A DNA stretch of 64,000 nucleotides from a virus: IMG/VR virus record IMGVR_UViG_3300044642_000548, positions 1 to 64,000 of that record; one strand, given 5' to 3'. Within the stretch, counting starts at the first letter, position 1; each line of letters begins with the position of its first letter. A program made the translations under genes and the position numbers. A model generated the notes under the pieces. That model had not been told where the DNA came from, searched no databases, and saw nothing but the letters and a program-made list of their open reading frames with translations. Shown piece by piece: positions 2,826 to 54,159 of the stretch.

Positions 2826-3745
2826 TTATTTTTCATTTTTAAAAACTCTAAAACCCCATTAAAAGCAGCATTAACTGATGTGTGACATTCATATGTTGGT
2901 TTTTTTTCATAACAAGCCGGTGCTGCAAAACTATTCCATCTTGTAATTTTTTGATCTCCAATCACATTATATTTCATATCTGACTGACAAAATAATTTAC
3001 AAGAACCCCCAACAAATTTGTGTTTATATTCCTGCGATCCATTCCTAAATGGGGATCTATATGCCGGATTAATTGCTCCCCCTAATTCCAAAATATTTAC
3101 ATCTGTAGTCCCAGCAAAAGGTAATAAACCAGCATTCATAGTTATGGTAACCAAACTATTATTAACCAAATGCCATAACTGAGACAAATTTAATTTATTT
3201 ATCAAATTTATCACATTAGGATTGTCAATTTCTATAGAGCTTTTTATATCATCACCATAACTTATATCTTTACCAGTAACAACAACTTTTATCCCTAACT
3301 TTAAAATCATTTCAGTTAACTTTTCCCATTTTTCTTTGTCCCACGTTCTACATTCCCAAGTTTTTGACGGACTTATTACAATGTAATCACCTTCAGGTAA
3401 GTCAATGTCAATTGGATCCGGATAAAAATTAATTGTTTTTTCTTCTGGCGTTAAAATAAAACCCAAATGAGTTGACCAATAATCGGTGAGATGCATTTTT
3501 CTAATTTGTTTTTGAACATCCTCAAAATTATGACCATTACAATCATAAAATTCTTGACCACCAGGTAAAAATTCATTTTGGTTAGTGTCATATATTTTAC
3601 CAACATATGGGTTGTTCTTAAAGATAATTGGGAAATTAGTTTCAACATCTATCTTATCATTATGACACACACTCAAATATCTTAACACAGGTGTTGAATA
3701 TAACACATCACCAAAACAACCTTCTATTTTAAATCCGTATCTCAT
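2822..3745 (-). CDS. GT9-like glycosyltransferase, copy 1 (307 aa)
   Basis: Resembles glycosyltransferase family 9 (ADP-heptose:LPS heptosyltransferase-like). Near the N-terminus is FGDVLYSTPVLRYLS, matching the family's GD.L..TPvl..l motif. The middle has YIVISPSKTWECRTWDKEKW, the GT9 'sP......k.W....w' strand-loop. The C-terminal half has VTITMNAGLLPFAGTTD, where GT9 enzymes have D.g..HlAaa. Cysteines cluster near the C-terminus. Donor and acceptor cannot be read from sequence. It is a tandem paralogue of 3748-4665 and follows a methyltransferase, suggesting glycan modification of host or virion. Confidence 0.75.
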   Translation of the reverse strand: MRYGFKIEGCFGDVLYSTPVLRYLSVCHNDKIDVETNFPIIFKNNPYVGKIYDTNQNEFLPGGQEFYDCNGHNFEDVQKQIRKMHLTDYWSTHLGFILTPEEKTINFYPDPIDIDLPEGDYIVISPSKTWECRTWDKEKWEKLTEMILKLGIKVVVTGKDISYGDDIKSSIEIDNPNVINLINKLNLSQLWHLVNNSLVTITMNAGLLPFAGTTDVNILELGGAINPAYRSPFRNGSQEYKHKFVGGSCKLFCQSDMKYNVIGDQKITRWNSFAAPACYEKKPTYECHTSVNAAFNGVLEFLKMKNK

Positions 3746-10599: not shown

Positions 10600-10966
10600 T
10601 GTAATGATTTTCACATAATGTACTATACCAACCTATATTTGTTCTTAACTCCCCTTTTTCACCGCAGATCTCACAGATTTCATAACTTTGATCTTCAGCA
10701 AGTCGGATTCTTTTATGTATTTCATCCGATCCCTCATTAATGTAAAACCGTAATCCACCAAATTTTTCTTTAACCTGACACAATTGTTTATTCCATCCAA
10801 GTTTAATGAGATCTTCTATTAGATCTTTAATGATTGGGTACCAACCCAAACCAACACTAAAAAAACCACTATCAGTAATTGGTGGTCTATCCGTAAAAAA
10901 CCCACTCTCAAGTCCTCCAATGGACTCAAGATACTCATTCATTTCTTCTTCTATATTTTTAGTCAT
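10568..10966 (-). CDS. Hypothetical protein with Cys-rich C-terminus (132 aa)
   Basis: A 132-residue protein starting MTKNIEEEMNEYLESIGGL. The C-terminal part has YEICEICGEKGEL, then a later TLCENHYNEKY. The CxxC...CxxH arrangement suggests a small zinc-binding module. The middle segment WNKQLCQVKEKFGGLRFYI is a recurring phage-type motif. It overlaps the HAD gene by 8 nt. Function unknown. Confidence 0.7.
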   Translation of the reverse strand: MTKNIEEEMNEYLESIGGLESGFFTDRPPITDSGFFSVGLGWYPIIKDLIEDLIKLGWNKQLCQVKEKFGGLRFYINEGSDEIHKRIRLAEDQSYEICEICGEKGELRTNIGWYSTLCENHYNEKYKSNIQK

Positions 10967-11543
10967 TTTTCAAAAACTTTAATATTTTTTCTTTAACTCC
11001 GCTCTGTTTTATTCCCTCATTTGATCTTGGCGTTAAAACAAAATTATCTATCGCCCATACATCTTTCCAATCCTCACCAATTTTACCCATATTTAAATCA
11101 TCAACAGAAACCCAATGTGTAACCTCAGGATGATCCTGAAGATATTGTCTGATTTCAATAGTTCGTGTTTGTTCTAAATCCCATCTTGGTGACCATATAA
11201 ATAAATTACCATGAACTTTACAATCTTGTATATTTGGTGTTAACGCAATTGGTTTTTTACTTATCCCATGTAATTCATAATATTCACCAAGTTCTTCAAG
11301 AGTTGCGTGTAGCTTCCAATCTGAACTTACCACAATTTCACATCCTGTCTCTTCAACAATCTCATTAAGGATCTTAATTGCCTTTTGATCAAAGTCATCA
11401 AATCGTACAGACACCGGACCCTCTTTTAGATTTGAGGAGGATTCAGGATTTTCAGAACGATATTTCGCCCATTTCTTTGTTCGTCCACCCCAATTATTGG
11501 AGAGACAAATTACACCATCATGATCTAAAAATAATACTTTCAT
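10959..11543 (-). CDS. HAD-superfamily phosphatase, RNA-repair type (194 aa)
   Basis: A HAD motif I variant FLDHDGVI (DxDG) at the N-terminus carries the nucleophile Asp. A motif II-like strand is IVVSSDWKLHATLEEL. The C-terminal VSVDDLNM gives the motif IV acids. The pattern matches the HAD domain linked to 'Swiss-army-knife' RNA repair proteins (HAD_SAK type), which remove terminal phosphates. With the RNA ligase (16514), cREC (17922) and P-loop kinase (22058) it could supply the 3'-phosphatase step of RNA end healing. That link is inference. Confidence 0.75.
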   Translation of the reverse strand: MKVLFLDHDGVICLSNNWGGRTKKWAKYRSENPESSSNLKEGPVSVRFDDFDQKAIKILNEIVEETGCEIVVSSDWKLHATLEELGEYYELHGISKKPIALTPNIQDCKVHGNLFIWSPRWDLEQTRTIEIRQYLQDHPEVTHWVSVDDLNMGKIGEDWKDVWAIDNFVLTPRSNEGIKQSGVKEKILKFLKND

Positions 11544-11546
11544 ACT

Positions 11547-11828
11547 TTATGTTATTGCACCTATTATATTAAACTTCTCCTCAAACCATTCTTCCATCAC
11601 TTTATAAACTTCTGTTAGTATGACAGGATCTTTATCATCAATTCTAAGTGTTCTTATCATTGGTTCAACCATTAACTTAAAATTCAAAAATATTATTTCG
11701 TCTTTTGGTTGATACTCAAAATAAACTTTACCTTCCTTATAATACAGCATTCGTTTAGGACTATACTCTAAATTACTATAGTGTAAGGAAAGAAACTTTT
11801 TAATTAATATTTTCTTGTTTGAGTTCAT
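11547..11828 (-). CDS. Hypothetical protein with WFE C-terminal motif (93 aa)
   Basis: A 93-residue protein whose end (VMEEWFEEKFNIIGAI) resembles the segment just before the repeat array in the 354-residue protein at 1334-2398 (VTEWFESRFLNM). Its N-terminus is basic and its middle beta-rich. This suggests that the two share a small domain. Function unknown. Confidence 0.65.
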   Translation of the reverse strand: MNSNKKILIKKFLSLHYSNLEYSPKRMLYYKEGKVYFEYQPKDEIIFLNFKLMVEPMIRTLRIDDKDPVILTEVYKVMEEWFEEKFNIIGAIT

Positions 11829-11862: not shown

Positions 11863-11892
11863 AAAAAAACCCCCACATTTCTGTGAGGGTTT
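11863..11892 (-). terminator. Terminator after the candidate structured RNA
   Basis: A stem AAACCCTCACA/TGTGGGGGTTT on the minus strand (one mismatch), with a T run at 11863-11869. It ends the transcript that carries the 12070-12504 gene and the structured segment 11895-12069. Confidence 0.85.
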
Positions 11893-11894
11893 CG

Positions 11895-12069
11895 TATAGT
11901 TTGTTTCAAGAATTAAAATTATGTAGACAAGAGTTTTAAATTTTAATCAAATGACTTTTGAGTATTTGAATAATGAGTTTGGGACCATTACGTTATCACT
12001 ATCAATTATCCGACTATGCAGCCTCCATGTATAGAACACATATCATTTTGACCCTATCCACAAACTATA
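11895..12069 (-). ncRNA. Candidate structured RNA closed by a 10-bp helix (~175 nt)
   Basis: No ORF fills this gap. On the minus strand it begins TATAGTTTGT and ends ACAAACTATA, a perfect 10-bp long-range helix that encloses the whole segment and is followed within 3 nt by a terminator. Inside, ATTAAAAT and ATTTTAAT flank a loop near 11912-11950. The 5' half is better mixed in base composition than the surrounding DNA. It could be an independent small RNA or a structured 3' UTR of the gene at 12070. No match to tRNA, tmRNA or a known riboswitch was seen. Confidence 0.45.
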
Positions 12070-12504
12070 TTAGATTTGAGTGGTTGCGTTGAATACATCC
12101 AAACGATCTTGGATTTCTTCAATACGAGTTTCCAACTCTTTAATTGTTTCATTTCGTCTAACCAAAGAGATTTCTGAGGTTTTAACACTCTCACTTTCTA
12201 ATCGGTAACGATCACGATTTGATTTACCTTCGGTACAATCCATTTTTTTAAGTGATTGAGCAATGGATTTCAACTCTGACATCAAAAAGATGTCTTCCAA
12301 TACCGGTGTGTTGGCAATATGGATTTTTGATTTCAAATTAGCCAACTCTTTTGTGTCTTCAGAGATTTTAGCCAATAGTATAATTGAACTATATGGTCTT
12401 TCATTTCCAACCTCTATTGAGTTGTATTCTTGCATCAACTTTGTGTTCTCACCAATCTGTTTGATCAGTTTATTTTTTTGTTTCAGAGCTTGCTTAATTG
12501 TCAT
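12070..12504 (-). CDS. Coiled-coil protein (144 aa)
   Basis: A helical, charged protein: MTIKQALKQKNKLIKQIGEN, a middle segment KSKIHIANTPVLEDI, and a long C-terminal coil (ETIKELETRIEEIQDRLDVF). The layout is loosely like the DIP1984/DUF6847 helical proteins (heptad helix, then an INxTN-like turn), but the match is weak. It lies just downstream of dnaK and is followed by the candidate structured RNA. Confidence 0.7.
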   Translation of the reverse strand: MTIKQALKQKNKLIKQIGENTKLMQEYNSIEVGNERPYSSIILLAKISEDTKELANLKSKIHIANTPVLEDIFLMSELKSIAQSLKKMDCTEGKSNRDRYRLESESVKTSEISLVRRNETIKELETRIEEIQDRLDVFNATTQI

Positions 12505-12555: not shown

Positions 12556-12584
12556 CGGGACCCCAATTTATTTTTGAGGCCCCG
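12556..12584 (-). terminator. GC-rich hairpin after dnaK
   Basis: A 9-bp stem (CGGGGCCTC with GGGGTCCCG, including G-T pairs) lies 10 nt past the dnaK stop. There is no good T run on the minus strand (a T run exists on the plus strand), so it may be a weak terminator or an mRNA-stabilising 3' hairpin. Confidence 0.55.
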
Positions 12585-12593
12585 ATAACTTTT

Positions 12594-14450
12594 TTAAAGT
12601 ACTTCTTCAAATTCAACGTCAGACGGAGCATCATTACCTTCTTCAGTTGTAGTTTGTTCGTACAATGATTGACTAATATGGTGGAACTGACTATTAAGAT
12701 TTTCAATATCTTGATTAATCTTCTCAATGTCTTTTTTTGCGTAAGATTCTTTTAACGTTCCAAGTAATCCATCAAGTTCACTCTTTTGTTCTTCAGTTAA
12801 TTTATCTTCCAAATCTTTGATTGACTTCTCAGTTTGGAAGATTGTACCATCAGCCGTGTTTAGAACTTCAGCATCTTCTCTGAGTTTTTTATCCTGTTCG
12901 GCATTTAACTCAGCTTCTTGTTTCATTTTCTCAATCTCTTCTTTTGATAAACCTGAGGACGCTTCGATACGAATTGTTTGTTGTTTGTTTGTACCTTTAT
13001 CCATTGCAGAAACATTGATAATACCATTCGCATCAATATCAAACGTAACCTCAATTTGTGGAACACCTCTCATCGCTGGTGGAACACCATCTAAATTGAA
13101 CTTACCAATGGTTTTATTATCTTTTGCCATTGCTCGTTCTCCCTGAAGTACGTGGATCTCAACTGTTGGTTGATTATCTACTGCCGTTGAGAACACCTGA
13201 GATTTTTTAGTTGGGATCGTGGTGTTAGCATCAATCAATTTAGTCATAACTCCACCCATAGTTTCAATACCTAAAGATAATGGAGTCACATCTAATAATA
13301 AGACATCTTTAACATCACCAGCAAGTACACCACCTTGGATCGCCGCACCTAAAGCAACTACCTCATCAGGATTAACACCTTTAGATGGTTCCTTACCAAA
13401 GAATTGTTTAACCGCTTCTTGAATTGCCGGAATTCTTGTTGTACCTCCAACCAAGATAATTTCATCAACATCAGACACATCCATCTTAGCATTTTTCAAC
13501 GCTGTCTTACAAGGTTCAATAGTTCGTTTGATTAATGAATCTGCCAGTTGTTCAAATTTAGATTTTGATAAAGTTCTAACCAAGTGTTTTGGCATCCCAT
13601 CTACCGGCATCAAATACGGTAAATTAATTTCCGTTGATGAGGTTGAAGATAATTCAACTTTTGCCTTTTCTGCCGCTTCTCGTAAACGTTGTAACGCCAT
13701 CGGATCCTTGGTCACATCAATTCCATTCTCATCTTTGAATTCATTTGCTAACCATTCAATAATAACCTGATCAAAGTCATCACCACCTAAGTGAGTATCA
13801 CCATCAGTAGACAATACTTCAAATACACCATCACCTAATTCAAGAATAGAAACATCGTGTGTACCACCACCACAGTCAAACACAACCACTACCATATCTT
13901 TAGACATTTTATCTAAACCATATGCTAATGCCGCCGCTGTTGGCTCATTAATGATACGTTTTACTTCCAAACCCGCAATCTCACCCGCTTCTTTGGTTGC
14001 CTGTCGTTGAGCATCATTAAAATACGCTGGTACCGTAATAACCGCCTCAGTAACCGTCTCACCCAAATAATCCTCAGCAGTTTGTTTCATTTTTTGTAAA
14101 ACCATTGCGGAAAGTTCCTGCGGAGAATACTGTCGTTTATCAATATCCACTCTTGGTGATCCACCATCTCCTTTTACAACTTTATAAGGAACTTTCTTTA
14201 CCTCATTTTTAGATTCAGTAAAACTTGTTCCCATAAATCGTTTAATTGAATGTACGGTTTTTTCAGGATTGGTTACCGCTTGTCGTTTAGCCGGATCCCC
14301 AATCTTTCTTTCACCATCTTTAATGAATCCGATTACAGATGGCGTTGTTCGTTTACCTTCGTTATTTGTAATAACTACCGGTTCATTCCCTTCCATAACG
14401 GCCACACAAGAGTTTGTTGTACCTAAGTCAATTCCAATTATTTTTCCCAT
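12594..14450 (-). CDS. dnaK: Hsp70 chaperone DnaK (618 aa)
   Basis: A full-length Hsp70. The ATPase start is [17 protein letters not shown], then [13 protein letters not shown], the phosphate-2 loop [15 protein letters not shown], and [14 protein letters not shown]. The substrate domain has [14 protein letters not shown] and ends in the EEVL tail. Usual length is about 610-640. Two departures from host DnaK stand out: [10 protein letters not shown] instead of DLGGGTFDVS. It refolds or disassembles proteins with DnaJ, which this phage also encodes (40364). No GrpE was seen, so the host exchange factor is presumably used. An A-rich leader with no Shine-Dalgarno precedes the ATG. Confidence 0.98.
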
Positions 14451-37179: not shown

Positions 37180-39243
37180 TTAGAACCCTACCATTCCGGT
37201 ACAGTGTTTTTTCATATTTTCAGGGAAGTGTAGTAAGAAAAAATCTTCATCCGGTGTCATATAATCCTTTAATTTTTTAGGTATTTTAATGTTTGGATCT
37301 GATCCCATAATTGAGAAGAACTCCAAACAAGTTAATTTAGAAATAGATCCCGGCAATTTATCCAATTGACTATTATTAGTTAAATTTAAGAATGACAATT
37401 GTCTACAATTTCCAATACTTTCAGGTATTGATTTAATATAATTATCAATTACCAATGTTTTAAGTTCAGTAAATCTTCCTATTGATTCAGGTAGTTTCTC
37501 CGCAATCACATCATTTGATTTATTCTCTATGTTAATAAATTCAACATTATCAGGAATAGAATCAAAATATTCCTCAAAACCAAATAGAGCAACATATTTA
37601 GACGCATCATCTTTAGGGTATTCTAATTGAACATATGATCCCATATCCTTAGAAACTAACTCCTTAGAGAATTTTCTTTTTAACTCTCTTAAATAAGGTC
37701 TCATTTCTAAGGTCTTAATTGTTTCAATATCACTTGAAGTTAACTGACTTAATGTCTTTGTAAGTAACTTCTCTTTTTTCTTTGACACATAATAACCTAG
37801 TGCCCCACCTTTAAGGACTTTAACCATCCCACCACTTAACTCAGTTCCTAAACCAATATATTTTCTTTGTAATTCTTCAGGTAATTTACCAAATATTACA
37901 TCACCATTACTCATATGACTAAAGTCAGGACCTCTTAATTCTATCCATAATTCAACTTCTTCAACACTACCTAACTCTTGTATTGGGTCATCAGTTTTTA
38001 AGTTATAAGATTTGTATCTCTGCATTTTTTCTTGATCCTCATTACTAAATGGTTTTGGTTCAAGATATTCTTTCTTATCTCGTAATGTAGGGACCTTTCT
38101 AATAATTTCAGACCAATCAATTTCTTGTCCACCAGCATATTTACCTGAATTGGTACCATCCGCCAATCTCATTCCTCCCCATCTATCAACAAGAACAACA
38201 ACCGCATAGTTCACATCAGATTCAGGTAAATTCTTACTAATAACATAATATAATGTTAAGTTTTGATTTAATCTATAATTGTAGTAGTAATTACTTGATC
38301 CTTCCCAAGATGTACACCATTTTCTATCAGGAGCGTGTTTTTTTCTAATGTTAATACATTTTTGTTTTTCATCAGGAGCAAAAATTAATATGTCATCATC
38401 TTCATACGCAATATCAACGTCATCTAAATCAATTTCAGGTAAACTATATTCATCTTCACCCATTGGTGTGTAACCATCAACTAAATGTTCAAAGTCATCA
38501 AATGTCATAAACGCACTTAATTTAGCGTTTAATGGAATTAATTCAAAGTGATGTACAAATCTTTTAACCCTTGGTAATATTACGGTAAGTGGATCATCAT
38601 CCGGATTTTCTTTAGAAAACTTTTCCGTCATCCTTTTTGTTAACTCATTTTCCCCTCTTTCATTAAATTTAGAAAAGAATTTACCAACTAAATCACTCAA
38701 CTGAGATGGTGTTAATTCAGTTATCTCTCTTTTGAATAATTTTTGTTCAGGGAACAAAGTTTTTAACTCAAAATATTTTTTAATATTTGTTTTCACTAAT
38801 TGTAAGTCAGCACCTTTATGTTTGGTAACAAATTCTTGAGCTATACTTTCAAGATCTTTTTTGGTTTTTTGTTTTGTGGATTTATCTGCGGTCAGATTTT
38901 TTAAACTCTCATAGTCGTACTTGAATATGTCTAAGGTATCTTGTACTCTTTTGTTTAAATCACGAATTCTATTTTGTAAATCTATATACTCTTGAGAAGA
39001 CGGTTCTAAAGTTTTTAACTCGTCGTTAAGTTGTTTAAGTTCATTTTTTTCATCTATAGCAAAACCACCTTTAAATCTTTCAAAATCAGATATTGTTTTC
39101 TTGATTTCATCCTCAGTATCATCAGTTTCTCCAGAAAACTTATCCAATAGTTTTTTAACCGTTGATTCGGGATATTCTAATAATATTTTTTTAATATTTA
39201 CGTTTTCTTTAATAACTTTTGATAAAATTCTTACTAATTCCAT
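37180..39243 (-). CDS. KWCT-motif protein, member 4, with C-terminal LRR (687 aa)
   Basis: The largest KWCT member. A helical, charged N-terminal region (1-260) precedes the core VDIAYEDDDILIFAPDEKQK and HAPDRKWCTSW (KWCT at about residues 308-311), then LTLYYVISKNLPES. The C-terminal 120 residues form leucine-rich repeats (LPESIGRFTELKTLVI, IPESIGNCRQLSFLNLTNN, LPGSISKLTCLEFFSI). The LRR may bind a protein partner while the KWCT core acts. A TATTTATA motif lies 15 nt upstream. Function unknown. Confidence 0.78.
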   Translation of the reverse strand: MELVRILSKVIKENVNIKKILLEYPESTVKKLLDKFSGETDDTEDEIKKTISDFERFKGGFAIDEKNELKQLNDELKTLEPSSQEYIDLQNRIRDLNKRVQDTLDIFKYDYESLKNLTADKSTKQKTKKDLESIAQEFVTKHKGADLQLVKTNIKKYFELKTLFPEQKLFKREITELTPSQLSDLVGKFFSKFNERGENELTKRMTEKFSKENPDDDPLTVILPRVKRFVHHFELIPLNAKLSAFMTFDDFEHLVDGYTPMGEDEYSLPEIDLDDVDIAYEDDDILIFAPDEKQKCINIRKKHAPDRKWCTSWEGSSNYYYNYRLNQNLTLYYVISKNLPESDVNYAVVVLVDRWGGMRLADGTNSGKYAGGQEIDWSEIIRKVPTLRDKKEYLEPKPFSNEDQEKMQRYKSYNLKTDDPIQELGSVEEVELWIELRGPDFSHMSNGDVIFGKLPEELQRKYIGLGTELSGGMVKVLKGGALGYYVSKKKEKLLTKTLSQLTSSDIETIKTLEMRPYLRELKRKFSKELVSKDMGSYVQLEYPKDDASKYVALFGFEEYFDSIPDNVEFINIENKSNDVIAEKLPESIGRFTELKTLVIDNYIKSIPESIGNCRQLSFLNLTNNSQLDKLPGSISKLTCLEFFSIMGSDPNIKIPKKLKDYMTPDEDFFLLHFPENMKKHCTGMVGF

Positions 39244-51783: not shown

Positions 51784-54159
51784 TTAATTTAACACTCTTG
51801 ATACATTATTTTCCTTTTCAATTTTTACAATAGTATCGCCCCACTGACTAATCATTGGGTTGTGGCTAATTAGGAACACTTTACCAAAATACTCTTTAAT
51901 TTTTTGGAAGAACTCAGATACCATCTCAAGGTTATCATTTGATATTTTTCCAAATACCTCATCAAATACTACAATATTTGGTTTCGGTAATGTGCAAATT
52001 TTACTTAGTACCGAACGTAACGCTAAAGACGCAATTGTTCTTTCATAACCTGATCCCGAAACCATTAATTTTTCAATACCAGTGCTATTATCGACCATCA
52101 AAAATTCAACTTCATTTTTGTCATTAATTCTAATTTCTAATTTGAAGTAACAACTATCTTCCATCAATCTTTGTAGTTCTGAGTTAATCAGTGGCATCAT
52201 TGTTTTCATAATAATTTTTGATAACCCATTTTTACCGTACGCCTCTAAATAAATTTTGTAAATTTTTTCTCTACCCTCTTCTAACTTAATCTTATCAATT
52301 AATCCTTCGTTATTAACAATCTTCTCGTTAAATGATTTGATTTGATATTCATTATTTGAAATTTGAGAGTTTTTATTCTTTTTAATGTTTTCAAGTTCAT
52401 CCAATCTTAGATCCGCCTTAATCAACATTTCATCAATTTTAGTGTTCTCTTTGATTTTATCCTGAACTTTACCCCAACTATCCAATTTACCTTTTAAGGT
52501 CCCAATCTTCAAATCACAACTTTCAATACTTAACTCATATTTTTCTTTGATAAGTTTGTTTTTTTCATACTCATCAAAATCTTTTTTAAGTTGTACGAAC
52601 TGTTGTTCTCTGCCGGATAAATCCGTCATTAAGGTTGTTTTTTGGTCTCTATGCGTGATATAAACGGCAAGTTGACTAATTTTTTGTTGAGTTATTGAAG
52701 CGTTCATTAACTCAATTCCACAGTGCTCACATTTGATACCATCACTCACAGAACTCTTCAATTTCTCAATCTCATTGATCTGTGTATCAAGCTCAATTTT
52801 CAACTTAAAGGTATCGTTATACTCCTCTTTAATTTTATCATGTTGGTCTTCGTGATAAAATTCTTTTGGTTCAATAACTTTAAGTTCTTCTGATTTCTTT
52901 TGAAACCCTGTTTTCTCTCGTTCCAAAGAATCAATTTCCTCCTGAGTTTTAGTCGGGTTCATCAAACTGATTTCATGGTCAATGTCTCCGTGTTTTTTCT
53001 TCAACATATCGTCACGATACTCTTTCCCTTTCAGGATTTTCTCATCAACATCACCAATCTCTGTTTTTAATACCTCAATTTGATCATTTAATTCAGCGAT
53101 TTGAGTTACATAAGTTTCATTATCTGTTTTCAACATTTCAGAATTATAAATGTTAGATAATTTTGACTTGTTGAAGTCCGAATAAACTTCTTTTGCAACT
53201 TCCTCTTTCCGTTTCAAAAACTCAAGTCCCATAAAACGAGACAACACTTGACCTCTTGCCGTTGGTTTTGATTCCAACAATTCCTCAAGGTTTGTTGCCG
53301 TAGTTAAAATGGTCATAAGGAAATCTTCCTTTGTACCGATGGAATTCTTAATGAACGCCTCAGTTTCCCTTCTTTGTTCTCCAGTGAAGTTTTGTAAACT
53401 ACCGTCAGCCAATTTTTTGAAGAAGTCCAATTCTGTCTTAACATTCCATTCACCTTTCTTAGAAAGTTTTCTTTCAATGTTTCTAACTATGATGTACTCC
53501 TCACCATCAATTGTGATCTCACCTTTAACCGTTACTTTATTTTTGTCAGTAAATCGGTTGAAGATTTCCTCCGCTTTAGTAGTTTTTGTCGTCTCATTAA
53601 AAAATAAGAACATTAACAAATCCACCGTAAGAACTGTTTTTCCCCCAAAGTTTGGTGGGTTTGATTCTACAACCACAACACCATCACACTTATCAAAATC
53701 CAATCTTTGGTTCTCACCATATGATAAGAAATTAGAGAACTCTATGTTTCTGATATACCATTTCTTGAATTGTGTGGTTTCAACTTCCTCTTCTTGCATT
53801 TTGTTCTCAACCATTCTGTTGATCCCTAAAACGTCATCCAAGTGACCGTCATAACCTTTTGATTCCAAGAATTTTTTCAACAAGTCAAGTTGGTAATTAA
53901 CGTCAGCAACATTCACCGATACATCAATAGTTTGCATACTATCTTTCTCAATGTTTTTAACCTTAGTTAATACATTCACATTAGTCGTGTTATATTTCTT
54001 TTGGAAATAATGTTTAACACTCTTAATCTTATCTTGTGTGAAATTTTCAGGTAAGTCCTCCCATACAACTTGAATTGATGGGTTTTCAAACGTAGAAAAA
54101 TCTAAATCTTTTATCATTATATTGTAATTGAATAATTTTGGGGGATTGAATAAATCCAT
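51784..54159 (-). CDS. sbcC: SbcC/Rad50-like ATPase, T4 gp46 type (791 aa)
   Basis: Walker A sits in ESNPPNFGGKTVLTVDLLMF (about residue 170); the first Gly of GxxGxGK is not typical. Long coiled coils flank a zinc hook GIKCEHCGIELM near residue 476. The signature and Walker B (ASLALRSVL, NIVVFDEVFGK) are near the end. A roughly 130-residue N-terminal extension precedes the ATPase. It works with SbcD (55358) to process DNA ends for recombination-dependent replication. Length fits. Confidence 0.93.
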   Translation of the reverse strand: MDLFNPPKLFNYNIMIKDLDFSTFENPSIQVVWEDLPENFTQDKIKSVKHYFQKKYNTTNVNVLTKVKNIEKDSMQTIDVSVNVADVNYQLDLLKKFLESKGYDGHLDDVLGINRMVENKMQEEEVETTQFKKWYIRNIEFSNFLSYGENQRLDFDKCDGVVVVESNPPNFGGKTVLTVDLLMFLFFNETTKTTKAEEIFNRFTDKNKVTVKGEITIDGEEYIIVRNIERKLSKKGEWNVKTELDFFKKLADGSLQNFTGEQRRETEAFIKNSIGTKEDFLMTILTTATNLEELLESKPTARGQVLSRFMGLEFLKRKEEVAKEVYSDFNKSKLSNIYNSEMLKTDNETYVTQIAELNDQIEVLKTEIGDVDEKILKGKEYRDDMLKKKHGDIDHEISLMNPTKTQEEIDSLEREKTGFQKKSEELKVIEPKEFYHEDQHDKIKEEYNDTFKLKIELDTQINEIEKLKSSVSDGIKCEHCGIELMNASITQQKISQLAVYITHRDQKTTLMTDLSGREQQFVQLKKDFDEYEKNKLIKEKYELSIESCDLKIGTLKGKLDSWGKVQDKIKENTKIDEMLIKADLRLDELENIKKNKNSQISNNEYQIKSFNEKIVNNEGLIDKIKLEEGREKIYKIYLEAYGKNGLSKIIMKTMMPLINSELQRLMEDSCYFKLEIRINDKNEVEFLMVDNSTGIEKLMVSGSGYERTIASLALRSVLSKICTLPKPNIVVFDEVFGKISNDNLEMVSEFFQKIKEYFGKVFLISHNPMISQWGDTIVKIEKENNVSRVLN

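Follow-up and report, generated by a model that had tools for sequence, protein, structure and literature searches.

The packaging RNA (pRNA) of phage phi29 is about 174 nt long and its 5′ and 3′ ends are paired with one another. The RNA family described herein is like pRNA in size and in its paired ends, and no Rfam family matched. A second kind of precedent is a structured RNA encoded next to the protein that binds it: for the RAGATH-18 reRNA of IS607 elements, the TnpB-bound RNA is 184 nt with its 5′ part 13 nt downstream of the gene, and a ribonucleoprotein was first suspected because the RNA co-occurred with that gene (PMC11061315). For large phages, two ncRNA candidates of the 280-kb Pseudomonas phage PhiKZ were identified by Grad-seq, one of them derived from a 5′ UTR (PMC8545117), and a survey of human microbiomes deals with thousands of candidate RNAs (PMC8040213).

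The RNA considered here is encoded in a 64,000-nt stretch of viral DNA (the window), which belongs to a viral record of 75 kb. As in the TnpB reRNA system, a structured RNA lies just 3′ of a protein gene, but the adjoining protein is helical, has 144 aa and a predicted DIP1984-like fold, in contrast to the 390-aa average of IS607 TnpB (PMC11061315). With the PhiKZ candidates it shares its short length and an origin in intergenic sequence or a UTR in a large phage genome, and it differs in being a family with strong covariation, known here from sequence alone, rather than candidates in one phage (PMC8545117). We regard it as a new structured-RNA family of large phages, probably with Bacteroidota hosts. 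Measured against Rfam and the papers listed in literature searches, the family is new, its general kind (structured phage RNAs linked to a gene) is known, and its architecture is unusual. None of the papers listed in those searches is about this RNA.

The element and its setting in the window

The minus strand carries 19 of the 21 window ORFs of at least 300 aa, and the element (11895-12069, 175 nt), for which the original prediction named no strand, is read on the same strand with its 5′ end at 12069. It abuts the stop codon (12070-12072) of the gene for the 144-aa DIP1984-like protein (12070-12504, minus strand), which lies directly upstream. Behind it stands an intrinsic terminator (11863-11892, minus strand), recognized by its sequence, AAACCCTCAC-AGAAAT-GTGGGGGTTT followed by a T run when read from 11892 to 11863, and the next gene (11547-11828) starts 34 nt past this T run. 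The original prediction had described a terminator 2 nt further on, and the minus-strand hairpin begins exactly 2 nt beyond the arm of the closing helix. A simple terminator scan did not include this terminator in its output, which may be because the AAA/TTT pairs run into the T run. The same prediction had noted perfect complementary ends, and in the strand as written TATAGTTTGT (11895-11904) and ACAAACTATA (12060-12069) are exact reverse complements with 155 nt between them; the 10-bp helix that was expected to close the segment is present in the folds of both strands. It had also called the segment ORF-free, correctly insofar as no ORF of at least 50 aa overlaps 11895-12069; the longest minus-strand ATG ORF within it has 13 codons and is not kept in 22 relatives.

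Two candidate explanations for the segment were tried and rejected at this level. A small protein encoded in the element would need a conserved ORF, and there is none among those with ATG starts, while a promoter of its own is not indicated by a sigma-70-like scan of 6 kb, with 28 sites against 27.4 expected. Judged on the window sequence alone, the inverted repeat is not beyond chance: perfect 10-bp inverted repeats whose arms are separated by 100-200 nt number 26 in the window, where 20 shuffled sequences average 25.6 (sd 7.2), and the fold z is -0.76 for the minus strand and -2.23 for the plus strand.

In sequence terms the adjoining protein falls short of the DIP1984 family, with 16.8 bits to NCBIfam NF038048 for the window protein and 37.4 for a relative (L031), both under the curated cut-off of 70. 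Its AlphaFold model (pLDDT 90.8) consists mainly of long helices, and Foldseek against PDB 3kdq gave TM values of 0.76/0.72 at E 3.9e-3, so that by its predicted fold the protein goes with DIP1984. The structure 3kdq, the best solved structural match, is that of DIP1984, an uncharacterised C. diphtheriae protein. In a viral fold library the top five matches were uncharacterised proteins of phages and giant viruses, their probability being high and their TM 0.45-0.59, and searches of Pfam, NCBIfam and PHROGs found no RNA-binding domain in the 144-aa protein.

Upstream of the gene-RNA pair lies a phage-encoded DnaK-like chaperone of 618 aa (12594-14450, minus strand), and between dnaK and the 144-aa gene there is a 9-bp GC-rich hairpin (CGGGGCCTC / GGGGTCCCG; 12556-12584, minus strand) with two G-U pairs and without a clear T run. 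A 5-kb query matched the 635-kb uncultured phage LR745206.1 at 70.5% DNA identity over 27% of its length. A partner at dnaK was rejected, as LR745206.1, whose dnaK is similar to that of the window, has neither a DIP1984-like gene nor the RNA right behind it. Other minus-strand genes of the window encode a 'Swiss Army Knife RNA repair protein' HAD domain (10959-11543; Pfam HAD_SAK_2, E 4.7e-21), an SbcC-like protein (51784-54159; phrog_77, E 4.6e-39) and a protein that matches a leucine-rich repeat below threshold (37180-39243; 34.7 bits vs. a cut-off of 40).

Covariation and architecture of the RNA

A search with the 144-aa protein returned 34 viral loci with 65-100% identity, and in 34 of 34 the element is at the same place, each with a terminator-like hairpin behind it and with variable sequence past the terminator. 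These loci reduce to 22 distinct sequences, which were aligned and used to build the covariance model R1, a model that is made from the RNA family itself and gives the window element 179.7 bits. Three helices, P1 (10 pairs), P2 (10) and P4 (4), are paired in 91.5% of cells. Double-sided changes were found at 12 pairs and in 47 cells, against 7.4 pairs and 19.4 cells in shuffled alignments, with 0 of 500 shuffles reaching either figure, the structure being scored on 22 sequences from the same alignment from which it was derived; with the partners displaced by 1-3 columns, no more than 5 pairs and 13 cells showed such changes. With 49 sequences, in an alignment fitted to the model structure, 20 of the 25 model pairs and 198 cells have double-sided changes, against 12.9 and 55.9. 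The prediction had named covariation at the closing helix as one of its checks, and 3 of the 10 P1 pairs have double-sided changes with 97.7% of P1 cells paired.

The pairing of the ends was also assessed independently of any alignment by a swap test, in which 32 nt counted from the stop codon were cofolded with the sequence that precedes the terminator (or follows the core). Across 68 loci in 29 groups, swapped ends had a mean of -10.4 kcal/mol and own ends one of -18.9 kcal/mol, a value reached in 0 of 20,000 permutations, a count that is not a strict probability because the groups are related. The test omits 7 of 75 loci, two with other sequence between (L119, L122) and five in which no 3′ anchor was found (L116, L118, L127, L146, L153), and the 3′ end was set by hand in three (L090, L148, L150). 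For the groups of L125 and L152, 16 and 12 of 56 swaps equalled the own ends, and the ends of L116, L127, L146, L153 and L154 were paired by eye only. The arms of P1 are quite different among relatives, TATAGTTTGT/ACAAACTATA in the window type, ATATCTG/CAGATAT in L109 and TGGTTGGG/CCCAACCA in L132, and each set is self-complementary, from which it follows that the structure is kept and the sequence is not. The search for covariation across relatives was positive in the aligned test (0/500 shuffles) as well as in the swap test and, in our judgement, establishes the element as a conserved structured RNA.

Read as minus-strand RNA, the helices contain 46 G-U against 11 A-C cells, and this excess, the flanking genes and the terminator favour the minus strand as the source of the functional RNA. 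The 5′ arm of P1 (TATAGTTTGT, 12060-12069) pairs with the 3′ arm (ACAAACTATA, 11895-11904), both with compensatory changes and brought together by the swap test. Between P1 and P2 lies an internal loop, GGAU (12056-12059) opposite UGAA (11905-11908), where tandem G-A pairs are conceivable; 17 of 29 group representatives, with P1 sequences differing, have a loop of this kind, in which GA stands 5′ and GA or ...AA stands 3′, by a rule that was fixed after the pattern had been seen, and 12 of the 29 are without it. P2 (5′ arm 12045-12055, 3′ arm 11909-11919, the same test covering both) has double-sided changes at 5 of 10 pairs and 90.4% of cells paired. As for the internal hairpins of the original prediction, the P4 hairpin (GGCU-GCAU-AGUC, 12012-12023) covaries among the 22 sequences, at 4 of 4 pairs with 78.4% of cells paired. 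A further helix proposed by RNAalifold, P5 (GAU..UUGA with UCAA..GUC), was rejected, with double-sided changes at 1 of 7 pairs and 14 of 500 shuffles equal on the covariation score.

The remainder is a core (11931-12010), seen in the alignments, which contains UCAA/UUAA repeats and in the window ends in UUUAAAACUC. At about 80 nt it is conserved in sequence and is taken as mostly unpaired. The 29 representatives have 4.0 UCAA per RNA against 1.9 when shuffled, and 30 of 68 gaps between neighbouring UCAA motifs in the core are 7 or 8 nt, against 5.7 at random (0/2000). When gaps of 7-8 or 14-16 nt are counted, the figure is 48 of 68 against 11.6 (0/2000), the 29 groups not being independent in this respect because the spacing is partly inherited.

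Linkage to the DIP1984-like gene among divergent phages

A profile search widened the set to 87 relatives, the best 80 of which have 41-100% identity and are not independent loci, some contigs being near-identical. Among these best 80 of 87, R1 matched beside the gene in 46 at E ≤ 0.01 and in 68 at E ≤ 5, so that 22 of the 68 adjacent matches have E above 0.01; 26 of the 46 are on contigs outside the 34 close loci. Orientation relative to the gene is shared by all 68. The R1 matches total 70, the other two being one off site (L074) and the window itself, and 12 of the 80 loci are without a match at E ≤ 5, among them L149, which is truncated by the end of its contig. In a model search of 17 records, in the large ones of which 150 candidates were scored, a single match with E below 2e-4 was obtained for 8, weak matches only (some off site) for 6, and none for 3. 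The RNA was found on many viral contigs, several of 214-304 kb, and the gene extends to uncultured phages of 462 and 595 kb, with 34.5 and 31.9% identity to that of L118, in which the closing helix is, by eye, further downstream of the gene. In the 595-kb phage (L154, LR756511.1) a 28-codon lysine/proline-rich ORF (MAKGKTPKKEPKK...) at approximately 2990-3080 separates the DIP1984-like gene from the presumed RNA. End pairing and gene linkage hold among very divergent phages.

As the loci were fetched with the gene as query, its presence in 51 of 51 compared loci is by construction, and the linkage was tested by scans made from the RNA side. A core RNA pattern gave 31 stretches across all viral contigs, all on contigs of the 34 gene-carrying loci, and a further 11 and 3 were retrieved with patterns derived from two other clades. 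In all 14 of the latter stretches the motif is preceded, at a distance of 83-118 nt, by the end of a DIP1984-like gene, including 4 on contigs that no protein search had returned (L173, L174, L175, L178). Every one of the 45 stretches in the three RNA-only scans is on a contig with a DIP1984-like gene, the patterns having been derived from known members such that distant members would escape, and the scans support the linkage. At one locus (L119) an ORF lies between gene and RNA, the RNA being approximately 190 nt from the gene (E 0.056). Synonymous conservation in 13 loci showed no clear rise at the gene end, with values of 0.74 for codons 121-134 (5 codons), 0.54 for codons 135-144 (6 codons) and 0.45-0.65 elsewhere.

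No other neighbour is constant. In mechanical ATG ORFs of at least 60 aa, four on each side in 51 loci, the next most common family, a HAD-domain gene related to that of the window, follows the DIP1984-like gene at 20 of 51 loci. Eight of the 51 (L110, L111, L112, L115, L117, L136, L137, L142) have a convergent gene downstream, and a ninth locus (L029) was left uncounted because its ORF overlaps the element; a leader function for the downstream gene is excluded by these eight. Model E values at the convergent loci are below 0.001 in L112, L115 and L117 and 1.1-3.6 in L137, L111 and L110, which had 0 of 56 better swaps, and L136 and L142 (close to L133) have no model match.

Known RNA classes were likewise considered. 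At gathering score Rfam 15 had no match in the window, and in 17 distant loci it had 9 matches, all tRNAs. At E up to 10, only sub-threshold matches lie at the element, the best being Leu_leader (30.4 bits vs. 50), which spans the terminator. An amino-acid operon leader (Leu_leader, Phe_leader) was rejected, as different genes lie downstream at different loci, convergently in 8 of 51, and the scores are below gathering. A TnpB/IscB-type guide RNA was also rejected, the adjoining gene encoding a 144-aa DIP1984-like protein and not a RuvC-type nuclease, and with regard to a retron setting, in the four ORFs on each side no gene other than the DIP1984-like one is shared by over 20 of the 51 loci. 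In the window and the 34 close loci the element follows the stop codon and ends at the mRNA terminator, the position of an intrinsically terminated 3′ UTR sRNA.

The window protein had no match among 50,697 phage records, the proteins of its relatives matched only LR756500.1 and LR756511.1 in a search of named phages, and the protein had no match on plasmids. R1 found nothing in 198 bacterial genomes of one class, a search with stricter filters and without a positive control. The only DIP1984 gene above the family cut-off in the 198 genomes (L164) has, by eye, no such element behind it. One relative is in a Bacteroidetes MAG, from which we infer the host phylum to be Bacteroidota.

In several distant loci no terminator follows the element, and the independent 3′ end is undefined there for that reason. 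The sequence of the window terminator (AAACCCTCACAGAAATGTGGGGGTTT, 11867-11892, minus strand) is also present in L023 after 5615, the RNAs being of different lineages, and relatives such as L013 or L022 have other terminator sequences, a distribution that suggests terminators may be exchanged. A block (CCGTTATCCGTTAGG...) past the terminator and before the next gene is found in L014, L017, L018, L022, L026 and L093, and is followed by a AAGGGGGAATTCGCTACTCCCCCTT hairpin in the first five, L093 being read to the start of the block only.

Possible roles of the RNA

From its position, the RNA very likely belongs to the 3′ end of the transcript of the DIP1984-like gene, and placement right behind a gene and ahead of a terminator fits a 3′ UTR-type RNA, one of the two forms foreseen in the original prediction; as for the other, the RNA may also be a discrete product. 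We propose, tentatively and as the likeliest mechanism, that the structured ncRNA is the partner of the DIP1984-like protein encoded upstream and is cut from the 3′ end of its mRNA. A minus-strand RNA of approximately 175 nt would be made at the 3′ end of the gene transcript and would be released at the closing helix when the mRNA is cut or decays, either retaining the terminator or losing it by trimming. Protein would grip the stem and the internal loop, and the repeated single-stranded core would offer several like binding sites to a multimer, either of the DIP1984-like protein itself or of another phage protein, such that one transcript would yield an RNA-protein particle of the phage. The steady gene linkage, the closed stem with its often kept loop and the repeated unpaired core together suggest a ribonucleoprotein by analogy with the TnpB reRNA (PMC11061315). 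Against the partner reading stand the negative domain searches for RNA binding, the uncharacterised nature of the best solved structural match and the distant loci without a terminator; moreover, constant linkage would equally be expected of an RNA with no role beyond regulating or stabilising that mRNA.

Two rivals are serious. In the first, the RNA is a cis-acting 3′ UTR element that shields the DIP1984-like mRNA from 3′ exonucleases, or binds its own product in feedback, and no free RNA is formed. Its position 3′ of the same gene, with P1 abutting or overlapping the stop codon in close relatives and a terminator behind it in 34 of 34 close loci, agrees with such a role, but a simple stabiliser needs no 80-nt core that is conserved in sequence and mostly unpaired, and in L119 the RNA is separated from the gene by another ORF. 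We consider a purely cis-acting element rather unlikely. In the second, the RNA acts in trans as an sRNA or sponge, its UCAA-repeat core titrating a single-strand RNA-binding protein of host or phage (e.g., a Bacteroidota RRM protein) or pairing with targets, which would account for a conserved, mostly unpaired core with repeats often 7-8 nt apart. There is precedent in Bacteroidota for single-strand binding of ncRNAs: RbpB of B. thetaiotaomicron is described as a global RNA-binding protein that prefers single-stranded regions of noncoding RNAs (PMC11697453). However, the most significant RbpB motif given there is 41 nt long (PMC11697453), the host phylum here is inferred only, and a trans-acting role leaves unexplained why the RNA stays beside one gene; we hold this explanation to be as improbable as the cis-acting one.

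The remaining alternatives fare much worse. Short motifs repeated in an AT-rich core might recall the iteron-like repeats of a DNA element, an origin or packaging site with ends that are palindromic by accident, but the excess of G-U over A-C cells in the minus-strand reading favours RNA and all 68 gene-adjacent model matches have the orientation of the gene, which makes this highly improbable. An ordinary spacer with a chance inverted repeat, consistent with the chance level seen in the window sequence alone, is refuted by the conservation and covariation in relatives and has practically no probability left, as the original prediction had maintained in stating that the segment was not random spacer.

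To return to the partner reading, its fuller form is a new type of phage ribonucleoprotein, in which a closed-ended UCAA-repeat RNA and its own DIP1984-like protein would form a multimeric particle in very large phages, a possibility that we put forward with still less confidence than the partnership itself. What the analysis offers is a conserved structured RNA without an Rfam match that is tied to one small uncharacterised protein family, and this tie opens a direct test. If binding is true, both the RNA and the DIP1984 fold would gain a role, and if the ribonucleoprotein is real, the so far unexplained DIP1984 fold would be given an activity.
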